Positions 25,673 to 34,531 of a DNA stretch of 34,531 bases are shown in pieces. Where the stretch lies: NCBI GenBank assembly GCA_030154025.1, contig JASKKT010000023.1:1-34531 (forward strand). Direction: 5' to 3'. The notes beneath the pieces are model-generated. The model was not told where the DNA came from. It saw nothing but the letters and a program-made list of their open reading frames with translations, and made no database searches. Origin of the DNA: Methanolobus sp. GTDB taxonomy: Archaea > Halobacteriota > Methanosarcinia > Methanosarcinales > Methanosarcinaceae. The position numbers and the translations under genes are program-made. Position 1 is the stretch's first letter; every line of letters begins with the position of its first letter.

Positions 25673-26029
25673 ATGGCAAAAGTAATGATTGTGGACGACG
25701 CCGCATTTATGCGCATGGTCATCAAGGATATTCTGAAGAAGAATGGTCATGAGGTCGTGGCTGAATGCGTTGACGGACTTGATGCTGTCCAGAAGTACCC
25801 CCAGTTCAAACCGGATCTTGTCTTCATGGACATCGTTATGCCTAATATGGAAGGAACGGATGCGTTAAAGAAGATAATGCAGATGGATCCCTCTGCAAGG
25901 GTGATTATGTGCTCATCCATAGGACAGCAGTCTGTTGTCACTGACGCTCTCAAGAGCGGAGCCCTTGATTTCATAGTGAAGCCATTCGATGCCGCAAAGG
26001 TCCTGGAAGTTATCGGAAAAGTAATGTAA
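25673..26029 (+). CDS. cheY: CheY, chemotaxis response regulator
   Basis: This 118-residue single-domain receiver carries the CheA phosphoryl group to the motility switch. In archaea the switch contact is via CheF rather than FliM. Conserved residues are the acid pair Asp8-Asp9, the phosphorylation site Asp53 in VFMDIVMP, Ser in MCSSIG, and Lys103 in FIVKPFD. It is the first gene of the operon, and its stop codon directly abuts the cheB ATG. A GGGAGATC ribosome site lies in a short leader. Confidence 0.93.
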   Translation: MAKVMIVDDAAFMRMVIKDILKKNGHEVVAECVDGLDAVQKYPQFKPDLVFMDIVMPNMEGTDALKKIMQMDPSARVIMCSSIGQQSVVTDALKSGALDFIVKPFDAAKVLEVIGKVM

Positions 26030-27124
26030 ATGACGATCAATGTCCTTGTAGTCGATGACTCGGCGCTGATGCGTAAAGTTATTTCCGATATCCTCTCGGA
26101 AGATGCGGAAATAAAAGTAGTGGGAACCGCAAGGAATGGCCTCGATGCTGTGGAAAAGGTCGAAAGGCTCAAGCCGGATGTGGTCACTCTCGATGTGGAG
26201 ATGCCTACACTTGACGGGCTGCATGCTCTTGGATATATCATGAGCGAGTGCCCGACACCCGTGGTAATGCTTACGGCTGTCGACCCCAAGTCCGCTGAGA
26301 GAACCCTGAACGCTTTTGAATACGGGGCTGTGGACTTTATCCAGAAACCTTCCGGCAATATCAGCCTGAATATAATGGACATTGCTAACGATATCCGCTT
26401 AAAGGTAAAAATAGCGTCCAGAGTGGACCTGAAAAAGCTGGGTTTTATGGAAGAGCATGTGAATTCCCGTGAGAGCGCTGAGAAAAAACAGCACATCCCA
26501 CCTGCAAAAGCTTCTGAGGACACAAGGAAGAAGCATTTTTCAAACCAGAAGATACTTGCAATAGCTTCCTCTACAGGGGGGCCGCGGGCACTTGAGCAAG
26601 TGATCCCAAAGCTACCCGGCAATCTGAAGGTACCGGTGGTTGTAGTGCAGCATATGCCTGCAGGTTTCACGGCCTCGCTTGCACAGAGGCTGGATATGCA
26701 GTCACAGCTTAAGGTTTGCGAGGCTAAGGACGGGGATGTGCTTGAACCGGGCATAGTATACATTGCCCCTGGCAATTACCACATGGAAATAGTGCAGAAG
26801 AACATCAACGGGCGAACCTCGGAGGTCGTTTCACTCAACCAGAATCCCCGTGAGCAGGGTGTGAGGCCCTGTGCGAACATTCTTTTCAAATCGCTGGTCC
26901 CGCTGTACGGGCAGAACATACTGGCTGTGATCCTGACCGGCATGGGCGCTGACGGAGCTGACGGGGCTGAGGAGATCAAGAAAGCCGGAGGCGGGGTGAT
27001 AGCCGAGGATGAGAAGTCCTGTGTGGTCTACGGTATGCCAAAAGCAGTTGTCCAGCGCGGCCTGTCGGATAGCGTCGTCACTCTGGAAAAGGTCTCTGAA
27101 GAGATAGTTCAGATGCTAAGGTAA
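26030..27124 (+). CDS. cheB: CheB, receptor methylesterase/deamidase
   Basis: CheB removes methyl groups from receptor glutamates when phosphorylated. The 364-residue protein has an N-terminal receiver domain (Asp9-Asp10, phosphorylation site Asp55 in TLDVEMP) and a linker of about 50 residues. The methylesterase domain shows the catalytic Ser in IASSTGGPRAL (about 178-182), His in VVQHMPAGF, and Asp in LTGMGADGADG. The ATG directly follows the cheY stop, so translation is probably coupled. All catalytic residues are intact. Confidence 0.95.
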   Translation: MTINVLVVDDSALMRKVISDILSEDAEIKVVGTARNGLDAVEKVERLKPDVVTLDVEMPTLDGLHALGYIMSECPTPVVMLTAVDPKSAERTLNAFEYGAVDFIQKPSGNISLNIMDIANDIRLKVKIASRVDLKKLGFMEEHVNSRESAEKKQHIPPAKASEDTRKKHFSNQKILAIASSTGGPRALEQVIPKLPGNLKVPVVVVQHMPAGFTASLAQRLDMQSQLKVCEAKDGDVLEPGIVYIAPGNYHMEIVQKNINGRTSEVVSLNQNPREQGVRPCANILFKSLVPLYGQNILAVILTGMGADGADGAEEIKKAGGGVIAEDEKSCVVYGMPKAVVQRGLSDSVVTLEKVSEEIVQMLR

Positions 27125-27137
27125 ATGGTGATCAAAT

Positions 27138-27179
27138 ATGGTAACTTACACGATTACAATGACATTGAGAGGGGTGTGA
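27138..27179 (+). CDS. 13-codon upstream frame before cheA
   Basis: A short frame (MVTYTITMTLRGV, stop TGA at 27177-27179) follows a perfect GGTGATC ribosome site at 27127-27133 with 4-nt spacing, and it ends 5 nt before the cheA ATG at 27185. It is out of frame with cheA. It may be a leader peptide that couples cheA translation to cheB, or a chance frame. Confidence 0.3.
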   Translation: MVTYTITMTLRGV

Positions 27180-27184
27180 AAGAC

Positions 27185-29224
27185 ATGGACATGTCTGAAT
27201 ACAAGGATATCTTCAAAGCAGAGTCCGAGGAACACCTGCAGCAATTGAATGAGTCGCTTCTGGGGCTTGAGCAGAACCCAAAAGAGATCGAGTACATCAA
27301 CACCATGTTCCGCTCTGCACATACCCTTAAAGGGATGTCGGCAACCATGGGATTCAGCACCATCGCGGAACTGACCCATGAAATGGAAAACCTGATGGAC
27401 ATGGTGCGTAAATACCAGGTAGCTGTCAGCAACTCCCTCATTGATATCCTCTTTGAATGCCTTGATACCCTGGAAGCCCTTGTGGAAAGCGTGGACAGCG
27501 GTGAAGAGGTTAACATCTCCCATCTCCAGGCCACACTTGCACAGGCCATGGAAGGTACCCTGTGCGCGATCGAAGATACGGGCGCCGGCATAAGTGAACT
27601 TGCAGCAACGAGTCCGGCAGCCATGGAGGGACCAGTGGCCCCTGTCCCTGTGGCAGAAACACATATCAAGTTCTCTGAGGCTGAGACCGCAGGCATTGAG
27701 CATGCACTGCAGGAAGAGGACAGGGTCCTTAAACTGAAGGTCATGCTTGACACCTCATGCGTACTGAAGTCCGCAAGATCCACATTGGTGCTGATAAACC
27801 TGTCCAGGATAGGAAAGATCATCAAATGCGTGCCTTCTGAGGCAGATCTTGAGGATGAGAAGTTCGATTTCGATTTTATGGTTGTCCTTGCAAGCAAAGA
27901 GAGTGACGATGTGATAAGTGGTATCATCAGGAAGATCTCTGAGGTCAGGGACGTGGATATCACACCCCTGTATGAATGTGAGAATGCCGTCCATGAGTAT
28001 TCTGAGAAAGAGGAAGAGGAGACCGGCGAATCCCGTCAATGTTCCTCAGCGGTCAAGAGATCGGAATCCGTAAAAAGCATCCAGAGTGTCAGGGTCAACA
28101 TTGAGCGCCTTGACAATCTCATGAACCTGGTGGGAGAGCTGATCATCAATAAGATACGGCTGAACCAGCTTGCTTCCGATCTTAACACCAAGAGCCTGGA
28201 TGAGTCCCTTGCAAACCTGGACCGTCTTACCAACGAGATACAGAACGAGGTAATGGAAGCCAGGATGGTGCCAATCGACCAGGTGTTCAGCAGGTTCCCC
28301 CGTATGGTAAGGGATCTTGCAAAATCCGAAGGGAAGCAGGTGAACCTTGTTATCGAGGGCAAGGAGATCGAGCTTGACAGGACCGTGCTTGACGAGATAG
28401 GAGACCCGCTTGTCCATCTGTTGCGCAATGCAGTGGACCATGGGATCGAGCCCACTGAGGAACGTATAAGACTCGGCAAGCCTGAGGCAGGCTTTGTAGG
28501 CCTTTCTGCTTCAAGGCAGAGGAATAGTGTCATTATCGAGGTAGAGGACGACGGAAAAGGTATGGGGCCGGCACATCTCAGGGATATTGCTGTCAAAAAA
28601 GGCATCATGACCCGTGAGGAAGTGGACAAGCTATCTGATACGGATGCCCTGAACCTGATATTCGTGGCCGGATTCAGTGGTGCAAAGGCGGTCACCGACG
28701 TTTCCGGCAGGGGAGTTGGAATGGACGCCGTCAAGGCAAAGATAGAGGCCTTAGGAGGTACCGTAAAGGTAAGCTCGGTGCCTGGCCAGGGAAGCTCCAT
28801 CAAGCTGCAGCTGCCTCTGACCGTTGCCATCATCCAGTCCCTGATGGTCACCATTGCAGGCGAGACATACGCCATACCCCTTGCAAACGTGGTAAGGGAT
28901 GTGGGTATCAAGGCCAGCGATATCAAGACCATCGAAGGAAAAGAGGTCATCCTGCTGCGAGGGGAAGTGCTGCCCCTGCTGAGGCTGCGCGATGTGCTCG
29001 AATGTCCGGGAGAGGCTGAGAAAAAAGAGAACCTGATAGTTGTGGTCGTGGAGCGCATGGGCAGCAACATCGGATTCGTAGTGGATCAGCTTCGGGGACA
29101 GCAGGAAGTGATCATCAAAACGCTTGACAACAAACTCTTGAAGAACACAAAAGGATTTGCAGGCGCCACCATCCTGGGAGACGGGAGCGTTGCGCTGATC
29201 CTTGATATTGCTACTATGATATGA
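27185..29224 (+). CDS. cheA: CheA, chemotaxis histidine kinase
   Basis: CheA autophosphorylates under receptor control and passes phosphate to CheY and CheB. The protein has about 679 residues. The HPt domain has the phosphoryl His46 in AHTLKGMSATMG. A linker with a CheY-binding-like domain follows, then the dimerisation helices ERLDNLMNLVGELIINK. The kinase core has the N-box HLLRNAVDHGIE and ATP motifs DDGKGM and GRGVGMDAV, followed by a CheW-like C-terminal domain ('AIPLANVVRD', 'LLPLLRLRDVL'). I prefer ATG 27185, where a GAGGGGTG site lies 8 nt upstream, over ATG 27125, which directly follows cheB without its own site. An additional 13-codon frame precedes it. Confidence 0.94.
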   Translation: MDMSEYKDIFKAESEEHLQQLNESLLGLEQNPKEIEYINTMFRSAHTLKGMSATMGFSTIAELTHEMENLMDMVRKYQVAVSNSLIDILFECLDTLEALVESVDSGEEVNISHLQATLAQAMEGTLCAIEDTGAGISELAATSPAAMEGPVAPVPVAETHIKFSEAETAGIEHALQEEDRVLKLKVMLDTSCVLKSARSTLVLINLSRIGKIIKCVPSEADLEDEKFDFDFMVVLASKESDDVISGIIRKISEVRDVDITPLYECENAVHEYSEKEEEETGESRQCSSAVKRSESVKSIQSVRVNIERLDNLMNLVGELIINKIRLNQLASDLNTKSLDESLANLDRLTNEIQNEVMEARMVPIDQVFSRFPRMVRDLAKSEGKQVNLVIEGKEIELDRTVLDEIGDPLVHLLRNAVDHGIEPTEERIRLGKPEAGFVGLSASRQRNSVIIEVEDDGKGMGPAHLRDIAVKKGIMTREEVDKLSDTDALNLIFVAGFSGAKAVTDVSGRGVGMDAVKAKIEALGGTVKVSSVPGQGSSIKLQLPLTVAIIQSLMVTIAGETYAIPLANVVRDVGIKASDIKTIEGKEVILLRGEVLPLLRLRDVLECPGEAEKKENLIVVVVERMGSNIGFVVDQLRGQQEVIIKTLDNKLLKNTKGFAGATILGDGSVALILDIATMI

Positions 29225-29241
29225 TAATATGAGGGTATAAT

Positions 29242-29856
29242 ATGGCAGAAATGGACGAAATGACAAAAGGAGCATTCCAGGAAGCAGGAAATATCGGAAT
29301 GGGTCATCTGGCAACCTCTCTTTCGAAGATGGTAAACAGAGAGGTAAAGATCGACATACCTGTAGTGGAGATGCTTTCACTTGATGAGATAATATCCAGG
29401 GCCTCGAATGGAAAGCAGAAGAGCGTTGTAGGGATACACCTCAACATCTCAGGGGATGTGACGGGAGGAACCCTGATACTCCTGCCCAAATTCTCCGCGC
29501 TATCATTCTCAGACCTGCTTCTGAAAAAATCCATAGGGACCACGACCAAGATAGAGGAGCTTGAGATCCGCAAACTCCGTGAGATGGGAGTGCGCCTCTG
29601 CAGTTCCTACATGCGAGTGGTCAATGAGTTTCTCGGGATCAATCTTTCCATCGGTGATCCCACAATGGACGTAAATATGGACGGAGTAGCCGATTTCATC
29701 AAGACGGAGATAGGCCAGCTGGCTGACGAGTTCATAGTCGTCAAGGGGGAATGCTATATCCCGTCCACCAACTCGAGGAACGAATTCAACATGCTCTTCG
29801 AGCCTGAGGCCAGTGACATCATTATGGCTGCGATCATGAAAAAGATGATGGGATGA
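29242..29856 (+). CDS. cheC: CheC-family protein 1, second active site degenerate
   Basis: CheC proteins dephosphorylate CheY-P and bind CheD. The first phosphatase motif is intact in its key residues: EAGNIGMGHLATSLSKM keeps Glu and Asn, though the usual Asn after GMG is His. The second half-site, where the family normally reads ExxNIL, is REMGVRLCSSYMRVV, so its Asn is lost. At 204 residues it is normal length. It begins 17 nt after cheA with a GAGGG site and ends one base before the FtsA-like gene. It could be a one-site phosphatase or a CheC-type scaffold. Confidence 0.88.
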   Translation: MAEMDEMTKGAFQEAGNIGMGHLATSLSKMVNREVKIDIPVVEMLSLDEIISRASNGKQKSVVGIHLNISGDVTGGTLILLPKFSALSFSDLLLKKSIGTTTKIEELEIRKLREMGVRLCSSYMRVVNEFLGINLSIGDPTMDVNMDGVADFIKTEIGQLADEFIVVKGECYIPSTNSRNEFNMLFEPEASDIIMAAIMKKMMG

Positions 29857-29857
29857 A

Positions 29858-31978
29858 ATGAACAGTTCCCACTTTGCCCTGGACATAGGTACCAGGACCG
29901 TTGTGGGGCTCATTGTCGAAGGAGAGCCTCTGGAAGTAAAAGCCGCATGCATCTGTGGACATGATGAGCGCAGCATGCATGATGGACAGATCCATGATGT
30001 GGAGAAGGTCGCAGAGGTAGTAGGTAAAGTAAGATCGGAACTTGAGAAACAGCTCGGATACAGGCTCACGAGGGCCAGCATAGCTGTTGCCGGGAGGGCA
30101 CTGAGAACTTCCAGGGCAAAGATCACCATCGAACTCCCATACCGTGAGATCACTGAAAAGGAAGTGTCCGAGATCGAGTTTGAAGCAGTTGCAAGGGCCA
30201 GCACCGAGATCGATGCGGACGAGCGGTTCAACTGTGTGGGCTATTCGGTCATCGGGTACGAACTTGATGGACAGAGGATCTCCAACATAACAGGGCACAG
30301 CGGAACTTCGATATCAGTGGAGGTTCTTGCAACTTTTCTGCCGGAAGCTGTGGTTAACAGCATGTTTGCTGTGCTTGCCAGGTGCGGCATGGAGATCGCA
30401 GGCATCACCCTGGAACCCATCGCTGCCCTGAGCGTTTCCATCCCCATGGATATGCGCAAGCTCAACCTGGCACTTGTGGACATTGGCGCAGGTACCTCCG
30501 ATATAGCAGTCACGAATGACGGAACTGTCATCGGGTACGGCATGGTTGCGGAGGCAGGGGACGAGATCACTGACTTTATATGCGACCATTACCTGGTCGA
30601 TTTCAGGAAAGGCGAGGAGATCAAGCAGAAGCTTTCCTCATGTGAGAAGGTGGAGATACAGGACTTCTTTGGCAATGTGACCGAGATCCGGACTGCTGAA
30701 GTCATTTCTGCCATAGGGGAAGAAGTGGACAGGTTAGCCCGGCACATAGCCGAAGAGATACTTGCAATAAACGGCAAGCACCCCCGGGCAGTAGTGCTTG
30801 TGGGAGGAGGATCCCAGACGGTCACACTGAAGGAACGGCTTTCAGTACATCTGGGAGTGCCTGCGCAGCGCATAGGGACGCGCCTTCCTGCAATGATAGG
30901 GCAGTTCAGGGATAATACCGGCAAGGTCACAGGTGCCGACATGATCACGCCGCTTGGCATAGCCCTGACATCTATACAGAAAACAGGCATCAGGTTTACA
31001 GAGCTCACTGTTAACGGTGCAGCTATCCATCTTATGGCATTGAACGGCCTTACGGTAATGGATGCCCTTGTGGCCGCACACGTAAAAAGGATATATCCGC
31101 GTCCTGGGCTTGCCCTTACGCTCAGGGTGAACTCGCAGTTCATGACCATTGAAGGAGATGCAGGCAGGCATGCCAGCATCCTCCTGGACGGGAAGAAGGC
31201 GACCCTTGGGGACCCGGTCGGCAACGGGTCCGTAATAGAATTCGAACCGCCCGTAGACGGCAGTAATGCAAGCATAACTGTCAGGGAACTTGCATCCAGG
31301 ACTGGAGCTCCGCTGTTCACCGGCATAACCATCAATGGCCAGGAAACAGAACAAATGACTCCTGTCCTTGTTAACGGGAAGAAGGCATCACCTGAGGACA
31401 GTATACCTGACAGGGCGGAGGTATCGATAAAAGCTGCCACGCTTCTGGATGTAGTGCTCGGCAGAGCAGGCAATGGCCCACAGGACAGGATGCAGGTCTC
31501 CGTCAACAAAAGGCCAAAGGTCCTCGACAGGATAAGATACGATGTCATACTGAACGAGAACCCTGTAGATGCCGGGAAACTTTCCAGCATAACGATAAGC
31601 GAGGGGGACCGGATACAGATATGTGAAACCGAGATTAACTGGACCCTTGGCGAGATAATTGAAGCGCCTTCAAGGAGAAAGAGCATCAGTATAATCCTGA
31701 ACGGCAAAAAAGTTGTATTCAACGGCCGTGAAGGTTCCGTCATGGTCAACGGGAGGAAGGCAGAGCTTTCCGAAAGGGTGCTCGACGGTGATGATATAAC
31801 AATCAAGGAAGGGACTGATGAGAGTCCGATACTTTCCGACCTTTTTGAGTTCATGGACATTAACAGGGAAGAGCTTGTAGGAAAAAGCATCAAGCTGATC
31901 GTTAATGGTGCCCCCGCTCGTTTTACGACCCCATTGAGCGACGGGAACAAAGTTAGCATAGAGTTCCCGGAGGTATAA
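29858..31978 (+). CDS. FtsA/PilM-like actin-fold ATPase with C-terminal repeat tail
   Basis: This 706-residue protein of the actin superfamily resembles FtsA and PilM. Phosphate-1 is FALDIGTRTVVGLI (Asp9). An SHS2-like 1C domain (about 68-165) replaces actin subdomain 1B. Phosphate-2 is LALVDIGAGTSDIAV (Asp208), and the adenosine loop is VVLVGGGSQT (about 309-320). From about residue 380 a tail of repeats 'hhhNGKxAxL...DGDxIxI' runs to the end. There is no amphipathic C-terminal helix like the membrane anchor of FtsA, and no transmembrane segment. Proteins of this layout (about 700 residues, same opening motif) occur in Firmicutes as I recall. Its place between cheC1 (1-nt gap) and cheR (abutting) ties it to chemotaxis or motility; the role is unknown. 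Confidence 0.85.
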   Translation: MNSSHFALDIGTRTVVGLIVEGEPLEVKAACICGHDERSMHDGQIHDVEKVAEVVGKVRSELEKQLGYRLTRASIAVAGRALRTSRAKITIELPYREITEKEVSEIEFEAVARASTEIDADERFNCVGYSVIGYELDGQRISNITGHSGTSISVEVLATFLPEAVVNSMFAVLARCGMEIAGITLEPIAALSVSIPMDMRKLNLALVDIGAGTSDIAVTNDGTVIGYGMVAEAGDEITDFICDHYLVDFRKGEEIKQKLSSCEKVEIQDFFGNVTEIRTAEVISAIGEEVDRLARHIAEEILAINGKHPRAVVLVGGGSQTVTLKERLSVHLGVPAQRIGTRLPAMIGQFRDNTGKVTGADMITPLGIALTSIQKTGIRFTELTVNGAAIHLMALNGLTVMDALVAAHVKRIYPRPGLALTLRVNSQFMTIEGDAGRHASILLDGKKATLGDPVGNGSVIEFEPPVDGSNASITVRELASRTGAPLFTGITINGQETEQMTPVLVNGKKASPEDSIPDRAEVSIKAATLLDVVLGRAGNGPQDRMQVSVNKRPKVLDRIRYDVILNENPVDAGKLSSITISEGDRIQICETEINWTLGEIIEAPSRRKSISIILNGKKVVFNGREGSVMVNGRKAELSERVLDGDDITIKEGTDESPILSDLFEFMDINREELVGKSIKLIVNGAPARFTTPLSDGNKVSIEFPEV

Positions 31979-32815
31979 ATGCTTAAAACTGCTGAGAAAC
32001 ATGCAACTAAAGAAGATACTGACTTCTTTATGCTCAAGAGTGTGATCAAGGACAGACTCGGGTTCAACTGCGAGTACTACAAGGATTCCCACTTCAAGCG
32101 CAGGATAGATGTCAGGCTGCGAGCTTCAGGTGCAAAGGACTATGGAGAGTACGTCCGGCTCCTGAAGGACAATGCCGGGGAACTTGACATCCTCATGGAC
32201 ACGCTTACGGTCAATGTTACTAACTTCTTCCGTAATACCGAGGTCTATGACATAGTGGAGAAGGAAGTGCTCCCTGCGGTGATCAAGGCTAAAAGCACAA
32301 GCCCTCTCAGGTCCATTAAGATATGGAGCGCGGGCTGTTCCATAGGAGTGGAAGCGTATTCCATTGCCATGCTCCTGCACCACATCCTGGGAGACAACAT
32401 CAGGAAGTACAATATAACTATCACAGGCACCGATATCGATAAGGCAAGCCTGCAGCAGGCCCGGCAGGGTCTCTACGGTGAAGTGGAAATGAAGGATGTC
32501 AGGCCTGCATTCCTGAAGAAATACTTTGTGCAACAGGGGAACCATTACCAGATCATAGACGAGATCAGGAAGATGGCACACTTCAAGTCCCATGATATGA
32601 TATCAGGCCCAAAGATGAAGGGATTCGATATAATATTCTGCAGGAACGTGACCATTTATTTTGAAAAGGAACTGCAGGAGAAACTGTACATGGACTTTTA
32701 TGACGGGCTCAATGATAACGGGTTCTTTGTGATGGGAAAAACGGAGACACTCCTTGGCCCTTCAAAAGACCGCTTCAAGCCTTTCAATGCAAAGGAAAGG
32801 ATATACAATAAATGA
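31979..32815 (+). CDS. cheR: CheR, receptor methyltransferase
   Basis: CheR methylates receptor glutamates using SAM, opposing CheB. The 278-residue protein has the N-terminal helical domain (YYKDSHFKRRIDVRLRASG, residues about 34-52) and then the SAM-binding methyltransferase core. Signatures are TVNVTNFFRNTEVYD, IWSAGCSIGVEAYSIAMLL (motif I), ITGTDIDKASLQQARQG, and FDIIFCRNVTIYFEKE. The ATG directly follows the FtsA-like stop, and GGAGGT sits 5 nt upstream inside the FtsA-like gene, so the two are translationally coupled. A hairpin follows immediately. Confidence 0.95.
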   Translation: MLKTAEKHATKEDTDFFMLKSVIKDRLGFNCEYYKDSHFKRRIDVRLRASGAKDYGEYVRLLKDNAGELDILMDTLTVNVTNFFRNTEVYDIVEKEVLPAVIKAKSTSPLRSIKIWSAGCSIGVEAYSIAMLLHHILGDNIRKYNITITGTDIDKASLQQARQGLYGEVEMKDVRPAFLKKYFVQQGNHYQIIDEIRKMAHFKSHDMISGPKMKGFDIIFCRNVTIYFEKELQEKLYMDFYDGLNDNGFFVMGKTETLLGPSKDRFKPFNAKERIYNK

Positions 32816-32863: not shown

Positions 32864-33478
32864 ATGATAGGAATGATGGATGAACTGACCGAGCTCCAGA
32901 CCAGTGCGCTGAAGGAGATAGTCAATATCGGCGTGGGCAATGCTGTTACTGCTCTTTCGAAAATGATAGGAACGCAGATCAGTATAGAAGTTCCCGAACT
33001 TAAGATAGAAAAGATCGAAGAAGTGCCTGAAAGGGCCGGTGGTGCTGACACAGTCGTATCCGGGGTCATCATGCATGTGAACGGGGATATCAACGGCTAT
33101 ATTATGATGCTGTTATCCAGGGAGACAGCCGAAACGATCTGCACGACCATCACCGGCGAAGAGGTTCCTGATATACTGGATCCTATGAACCAGTCCCTTA
33201 TAGAGGAGGTCGGGCACATCCTGGCGGGCTCCTACGTAAGCTCTCTTTCTGAGTTCCTGGCTCTTGACTTCATGATATCGCCTCCAATGCAGACCTATGA
33301 CATGCTTGGCGCTATCATGGACCAGATACTTATCGAGATGAGCAGGAATGTGGAATACACATTCCTTTTTGACACATTCTTCACAATGCAGGGAAACAGG
33401 ATGGAGGGAATCCTGCTCACCCTGTTCGATCCGGAATCTATGGACAGGATACTCTCGAGGATTAACGAGATGGTTTGA
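32864..33478 (+). CDS. cheC: CheC-family protein 2, second active site altered
   Basis: This is a second CheC-like CheY-P phosphatase. The first active site is intact (LKEIVNIGVGNAVTALSKM, Glu and Asn present). The second reads SLIEEVGHILAGSYVSSL, with His where CheC usually has Asn, so this half may be inactive or altered. At 204 residues it is the normal family length. The GAGGAG site fits the ATG at 32864. It is separated from cheR by 48 nt containing a hairpin and precedes cheC3 by 15 nt. Confidence 0.9.
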   Translation: MIGMMDELTELQTSALKEIVNIGVGNAVTALSKMIGTQISIEVPELKIEKIEEVPERAGGADTVVSGVIMHVNGDINGYIMMLLSRETAETICTTITGEEVPDILDPMNQSLIEEVGHILAGSYVSSLSEFLALDFMISPPMQTYDMLGAIMDQILIEMSRNVEYTFLFDTFFTMQGNRMEGILLTLFDPESMDRILSRINEMV

Positions 33479-33493
33479 CAACAGAGGTGGAAA

Positions 33494-34105
33494 ATGAAAA
33501 TAATACTTGACCAATTCTATTACGATGCGCTCAATGAGATCGGTAACATAGGCATGGGAAACGCCACGACAGCTCTTTCCCAGCTGGTGGGCAAGGCGAT
33601 CAGGGTCAGCGCATCCGAGCTCACGTCCCTTGAGCCGGAATACATTTCCAGGCACCCGGACAACAGCAAGTCTGCAGCCATAGTCAAGATAGTGGGTGAC
33701 CTTAACGGCGGCTTCGTACTGATGCTGAACAGGAGGCATTCCGAAACACTGTCAGAGATGCTGCTTGCACGCACGGAGTATGAGAATGACAGCTACATGA
33801 AGAATTCAGTGTCTATTGAAGTTGCAAACATCCTGGCAGGTACCTACTGCACCGCTCTTTCCAGGTTCCTTGATATTTCCGTGACTCCTTCACTGCCCTT
33901 TCTGGCGGAAGGGAGCCCGGATGACGTGCTGAATAAGTGCGGGAAGTACCTCAACGGGAAAATGGACCATATCATGGGACTGACCGCCCTGTTCGAGATA
34001 GAGGCTGAGGATGAGTACCACAGCCTGAGCGGTGATATATACATGCTCCTGGACACCGCTTCCATGAGAGTGATCATTGACAGGATAAACCAGATGCGTA
34101 CCTGA
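33494..34105 (+). CDS. cheC: CheC-family protein 3, both active sites intact
   Basis: This third CheC paralogue is the only one with both phosphatase half-sites complete: ALNEIGNIGMGNATTALSQL and VSIEVANILAGTYCTAL each keep Glu and Asn. It is therefore the best candidate for the main CheY-P phosphatase. At 203 residues it is typical. GAGGTGG lies just before the ATG. It lies directly upstream of cheD, and CheC normally binds CheD to control deamidation, so this pair is likely a functional complex. Confidence 0.92.
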   Translation: MKIILDQFYYDALNEIGNIGMGNATTALSQLVGKAIRVSASELTSLEPEYISRHPDNSKSAAIVKIVGDLNGGFVLMLNRRHSETLSEMLLARTEYENDSYMKNSVSIEVANILAGTYCTALSRFLDISVTPSLPFLAEGSPDDVLNKCGKYLNGKMDHIMGLTALFEIEAEDEYHSLSGDIYMLLDTASMRVIIDRINQMRT

Positions 34106-34112
34106 TACAATC

Positions 34113-34531
34113 ATGATAATCGTAGGAATGGCAGACAGCGCAGTAGCAAGGAAACCCGCTAAGATCTCGACCCTGGGGCTGGGTTCGTGCGTAGGTGTTG
34201 CCATGTACGATAAAACAAGCTGTATCGGCGGAATGGTCCATATAATGCTTCCAAGTATTGAGAATGCAAGGTCCAAGGATAACCCTGCAAAGTTTGCCGA
34301 TACAGGCATACCATACCTCCTGGAATGCATGGTGGAAGAGGGTGCTGCAAGAAACGCCGTCAAAGCCAAGATCGCAGGAGGAGCGAGGATGTTCTCCTTC
34401 AGTTCTAACGCCCAGCTCAATATTGGAGAGAGGAATGTAAGTGCGACCAAAGAGGCACTGAAGAAGTTGCGGATCCCGCTTGTTGCAGAAGATACGGGTG
34501 AGAACTACGGGCGTACGATAATCCTGGATAC
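34113..34531 (+). CDS. cheD: CheD, receptor glutamine deamidase (3' end beyond window)
   Basis: CheD deamidates receptor glutamines and is regulated by CheC. The visible 139 codons carry the catalytic residues: Thr20 and Cys26 in STLGLGSCVGVAMYD, and His43 in MVHIMLP. The spacing matches the known Thr/Cys/His triad of the family. IAGGARMF is a further family motif. The frame runs through the last base without a stop, so only a short C-terminal part is missing. It starts 7 nt after cheC3; I see no strong ribosome site, so translation may depend on coupling. Confidence 0.93.
   Translation, partial: MIIVGMADSAVARKPAKISTLGLGSCVGVAMYDKTSCIGGMVHIMLPSIENARSKDNPAKFADTGIPYLLECMVEEGAARNAVKAKIAGGARMFSFSSNAQLNIGERNVSATKEALKKLRIPLVAEDTGENYGRTIILD

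Follow-up and report, generated by a model that had tools for sequence, protein, structure and literature searches.

Few signalling systems have been studied as well as chemotaxis, and the list of its components is regarded as almost complete. The described proteins closest to the one reported here are FtsA (TIGR01174, PF14450) and PilM (PF11104, TIGR01175), in which the IA-IC cleft of the actin fold binds membrane proteins by their short cytoplasmic tails; the 1C subdomain of FtsA also makes lateral filament contacts (PMC7613929). MreB, DnaK and EutJ have an actin-type ATPase core as well, and in MreB the Glu of an E-P motif is catalytic (PMC4051119). Archaeal chemosensory arrays are positioned by NTPases, and MinD4/MinD2 of Haloferax volcanii (PMC11588486), which have the unrelated ParA/MinD fold, are possible functional analogues of the protein described below.

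The window, that is, the whole 34,531-nt stretch of Methanolobus DNA analysed here, is one contig of a draft genome that is 99.8% complete. Its che operon contains a gene, single-copy in this genome, for an actin-fold protein that we call FTSA-like. The features are as follows; the che genes were assigned by Pfam.

25673..26029, + strand, cheY
26030..27124, + strand, cheB
27125..29224, + strand, cheA
29242..29856, + strand, cheC1
29858..31978, + strand, FTSA-like gene, encoding a 706-aa FtsA/PilM-type actin-fold protein with a beta-rich tail (open reading frame and model)
29858..31000, + strand, actin-fold core, residues 1-381, with FtsA-type 1C subdomain (AlphaFold2 model, VIA-align)
29882..29896, + strand, phosphate-1 motif DIGTR, residues 9-13, invariant in alignments
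29960..29998, + strand, family signature HxxRSMxDGQIHD, residues 35-47, near-invariant in archaea and Bacillota
30407..30427, + strand, TLEPIAA, residues 184-190, an E-P-x-A-A active-site motif as in MreB
30479..30508, + strand, phosphate-2 motif DIGAGTSDIA, residues 208-217 (alignments)
30803..30814, + strand, adenosine motif GGGS, residues 316-319 (alignments)
31001..31975, + strand, C-terminal tail, residues 382-706, of tandem beta-rich units
31969..31974, + strand, GGAGGT, likely ribosome site of cheR, within the FTSA-like gene
31979..32815, + strand, cheR, a recurrent neighbour of the family in Bacillota
32864..33478, + strand, cheC2
33494..34105, + strand, cheC3, with both E-x2-N phosphatase sites present
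34113..34529, + strand, cheD, open at the contig end (157 aa in relatives)

The FTSA-like open reading frame begins with ATG and has no internal stops. It is separated by 1 nt from the cheC1 stop, which ends at 29856, and its own TAA, ending at 31978, abuts the cheR ATG at 31979. These coordinates agree with a preliminary description of the window, which had also placed the cheR ribosome site inside the gene and had recognised all three nucleotide motifs of the actin fold; the likely site and the motifs are those listed above. With 24 intact copies, invariant synteny and a dN/dS of 0.14, the open reading frame is a real gene, far beyond chance.

An AlphaFold2 model built on 15 sequences (mean pLDDT 84, pTM 0.63) was compared with the PDB over residues 1-381. 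By VIA-align, this core matched FtsA (7q6i) with Z 32.9 over 359 residues and PilM (2ych) with Z 28.9, and MreB ranked behind both (Z 22.8); 1C replaces 1B as in FtsA, against which the model gave Z 29-33 over ~355 residues. As modelled, the protein thus has the actin fold of the FtsA/PilM branch, which the preliminary description had anticipated. The E-P motif, shared with MreB as E-P-x-A-A, is present in 115/118 family members and differs from the K-P or Q-P of four clear true FtsA; its Glu, aligned with that of MreB, would by inference be the catalytic residue, and the motif is consistent with ATP hydrolysis. The DGQ[IV]H[DN] portion of the family signature was found in 108/118 members. The ~325-aa tail, an addition relative to FtsA, PilM and MreB/DnaK/EutJ, carries repeated NG..A..DGD.I motifs, is beta-rich in the model, and keeps its motifs between archaea and Bacillota (e.g., FTTPL.DGD near the C-terminus). 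The full model, the repeats and weak ThiS/S4 Pfam matches suggest, with moderate confidence, tandem beta-grasp-like units; modelled alone with no alignment, the tail reached a pLDDT of 32.

The curated models set the family apart from its relatives. The protein exceeded the Pfam PilM_2 gathering score (30.4 versus 27 bits) but fell below the NCBIfam cut-offs for PilM (TIGR01175; 55.3 versus 133 bits), FtsA (99.3 versus 175.85 bits) and MreB (17.4 versus 365.75 bits), and it differs from MreB, DnaK and EutJ in its FtsA-type 1C subdomain. The four clear true FtsA, which come from carrier genomes, have a C-terminal membrane helix with an FF-rich end (e.g., KVKKFFGHFFE), whereas FTSA-like ends in a strand (...VSIEFPEV); the absence of a C-terminal amphipathic helix, noted earlier from the window, was thus borne out by comparison with true FtsA of Bacillota. 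An arginine of the 2B region (I-I-E-A-R), which by motif position we take to be R286 of E. coli FtsA, was present in 5/5 FtsA-type sequences and absent from all FTSA-like members aligned. The context of R286 is given elsewhere (PMC5832921). Identity with the divisome FtsA, already doubted in the preliminary description, is ruled out by the score below cut-off and the missing helix and arginine. A division or cell-shape paralogue of FtsA merely riding in the che operon would fit the nearest fold and best NCBIfam model, both of which are FtsA; however, the same two features are missing, SepF is kept in Methanolobus with and without the FTSA-like gene, the carrier genomes examined have a separate ftsA, and carriage tracks CheA (see below), so that this reading is very unlikely. 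The neighbourhoods also differ: ftsA has ftsZ as a neighbour, whereas FTSA-like lies in a che operon or beside cheR, and no pilNOPQ genes were recognised near it, the annotated neighbours in Methanolobus and Bacillota being che, hem, ctsR-clpC or ccpA-aroA clusters. The 'pilM' annotation of an Anoxybacillus homologue looks like over-annotation.

To assess distribution within the genus, 27 Methanolobus genomes were compared (that of the window and 26 others). Intact copies, 58-91% identical to that of the window, were found in 24, the window's genome included, and in these the order gate-cheY-B-A-C1-gene-R-C2-C3-D holds without exception over the span that the contigs cover. The gene is under purifying selection, with a dN/dS of 0.14 against its nearest relative and 0.03-0.19 for its che neighbours. 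The remaining three genomes comprise G018, where a deleted remnant is left, and G012 and G021, where the FTSA-like gene is missing; nor did G012 give a cheA match. A tree built from seven che proteins nested both G018 and G021 inside Methanolobus, and the two genomes keep cheY, B, A, C1, R, C2, D and the archaellum marker PF05377. The remnant in G018 is missing residues ~104-587, and with them the nucleotide site, and cheC3 survives there as remnants; G021 has an empty site with neither gene. Among the genera examined, only Methanolobus has the cheC3 gene, a divergent paralogue of the cheC4 group; in the sister genus, cheC1-cheR and cheC2-cheD adjoin directly, without FTSA-like or cheC3. Both che-operon genomes that lost the FTSA-like gene have therefore lost cheC3 as well, in small numbers and draft genomes; G003 keeps FTSA-like intact with a broken cheC3, so the pair is not strictly obligate. 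A neutral hitchhiker, retained through operon structure, would account for a gene that evolves faster than most of its che neighbours and was dispensable in two lineages, but purifying selection, invariant motifs, a cheR adjacency that arose independently and the phyletic association in Bacillota make this explanation extremely improbable.

Some details of these loci are recorded here. In G018 (L050:6768-7421), the in-frame deletion has joined the first ~104 residues to the last ~110, giving a 216-aa product in which the otherwise invariant D42 is changed to G. The cheC3 of G003 has an internal deletion and a frameshift (L036:7026-7363). Downstream of cheD, Methanolobus has a membrane protein of 340-407 aa and a fourth cheC (L027:13060-14937 in G006); in the sister genus (L107), cheD and cheC are not separated by that membrane protein.

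Outside Methanolobus, no other genus of the same family or order was positive, and across 393 genomes of 136 genera in the archaeal phylum Methanolobus was the sole positive genus. Homologues were, by comparison, recovered from 112/199 and 167/299 Bacillota genomes (overlapping samples), one copy each, mostly full length and at 33-45% identity. In an unrooted tree with no firm sister group, the archaeal sequences formed one clade among Bacillota branches, so that a single transfer from Bacillota is the simplest history; most likely, a Methanolobus ancestor acquired the gene once, with insertion between cheC1 and cheR. An archaeal invention was rejected: the family is widespread in Bacillota, has a large beta-rich tail, and was acquired by a single genus. 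A scan of IMG/VR with the family alignment gave no FTSA-like relative, and matches in plasmid and phage collections were mostly true FtsA, the long ones being from Anoxybacillus, Acetoanaerobium and unannotated 'Bacteriophage sp.' faecal contigs. Full-length FTSA-like genes occur in several such human faecal records (GenBank MT835512, MT835546, MT835753, MT839800 and others), which are probably bacterial contigs mislabelled as phage. In Cerasibacillus terrae (L065:9977-10997), a frameshift about 200 residues in divides the gene, which is likely a pseudogene or an assembly error.

The preliminary description had proposed a role in chemotaxis, to be doubted if homologues were scattered without che linkage. 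Most Bacillota copies indeed do not adjoin che genes, and their neighbourhoods vary among hem genes with cheR, flgG...ctsR-mcsAB-clpC and, in Bacilli, ccpA-aroA...ytxHG-murC; nevertheless, the proposed role was strengthened by CheA in nearly all carriers, cheR as a recurrent neighbour, and the loss of cheC3 with the gene in Methanolobus. Among the 199 Bacillota genomes, CheA was present in 111/112 carriers versus 56/87 non-carriers (Fisher p 4e-12, a test that counts genomes as independent where ancestry is shared and CheA is confounded with flagella), and all 112 carriers had CheA or CheR. A sporulation gene was considered and rejected by a Spo0A control: carriage was 105/157 in Spo0A+CheA+ genomes, 1/17 in Spo0A+CheA-, 6/10 in Spo0A-CheA+ and 0/15 with neither, tracking CheA rather than Spo0A. 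In 74 Bacillota loci selected independently of cheR, cheR lay within about 2.2 kb of FTSA-like in 16, and upstream on the same strand in 15, with gaps down to 67 bp. Adding 20 further loci, four of them selected because of cheR, brought the count to 21/94, with gaps from 42 bp; on rough assumptions, random placement would give ~0.07. The adjacency requires only 3-5 changes on the tree and thus represents few, long-kept events. The cheR of Methanolobus, 59-60% identical to that of genera without the FTSA-like gene, is by sequence the resident archaeal version; co-transfer of the two genes was accordingly rejected, and cheR adjacency arose independently of Bacillota. In one Bacillota genome (G704, L145), the genes cheB-cheY-cheC-cheD form a cluster 0.6 kb from the FTSA-like gene and convergent with it.

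CheA and flagella usually co-occur in Bacillota, and the CheA link might therefore only reflect a motility-assembly factor that serves flagella there and the archaellum in Methanolobus; flgG two genes upstream in one Bacillota lineage would fit. This is quite unlikely, as the archaellum and the flagellum are unrelated, so that Che proteins, and not the flagellum, are what both hosts share. The Methanolobus gene, moreover, lies in the che operon with the archaellum marker PF05377 on other contigs of the window's genome, and G018 and G021 lost the gene while retaining that marker.

Overall, the link of the family to chemotaxis is well supported, and FTSA-like is probably an overlooked component of the apparatus that directs cell swimming. 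As to mechanism, we give roughly even chances to a chemotaxis-dedicated actin-like ATPase that works with the CheR/CheC adaptation module as an ATP-gated scaffold. It would be a soluble ATPase of the FtsA/PilM actin branch, from a Bacillota family that became part of chemotaxis. The actin core would change state on ATP binding and hydrolysis, perhaps through polymerisation, and the 1C subdomain and beta-rich tail would dock adaptation proteins (CheR, CheC-type phosphatases, perhaps CheD), which could then be held at, or released from, the chemosensory array. By analogy with FtsA and PilM, the core could bind the tail of a receptor or other membrane protein while the repeat tail binds CheR or CheC, the state of the core being under the control of ATP; hydrolysis, partner binding and the scaffold role are all what we infer. 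That the archaeal operon placement is a single event counts against this scheme. There is a modest chance that the protein is a dedicated filament-forming actin for chemotaxis in Bacillota and, by transfer, in one archaeal genus, organising or partitioning the array or the adaptation enzymes.

The main rival, by analogy with Haloferax MinD4, is a positional factor: the protein would polymerise and so place the chemosensory array, and in archaea the archaellum too, at the cell pole, or partition it between daughter cells, in the way that MinD4/MinD2 do in Haloferax. The actin/FtsA fold with its 1C subdomain and the positioning of archaeal arrays by NTPases (PMC11588486) both favour it; however, FTSA-like lacks the membrane-targeting helix and the conserved FtsA arginine, its neighbourhoods showed no linked ftsZ or min genes, and the gene that recurs beside it, cheR, encodes an adaptation enzyme, not CheW or a receptor. 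We regard a positional role as unlikely.

The finding is broader than the preliminary description supposed: FTSA-like is probably an overlooked, chemotaxis-dedicated actin-family ATPase of Bacillota that passed once into an archaeal genus. In PMC open-access text, no account of the family in chemotaxis was found, and where annotated its members are called FtsA- or PilM-like, even though this single-copy actin-family gene is present in about 56% of sampled Bacillota genomes. If FTSA-like acts in chemotaxis, annotations across Bacillota would be corrected, simple deletion tests could be made in cultured Bacilli, Clostridia and Methanolobus, and an actin-type ATPase would be added to the pathway.
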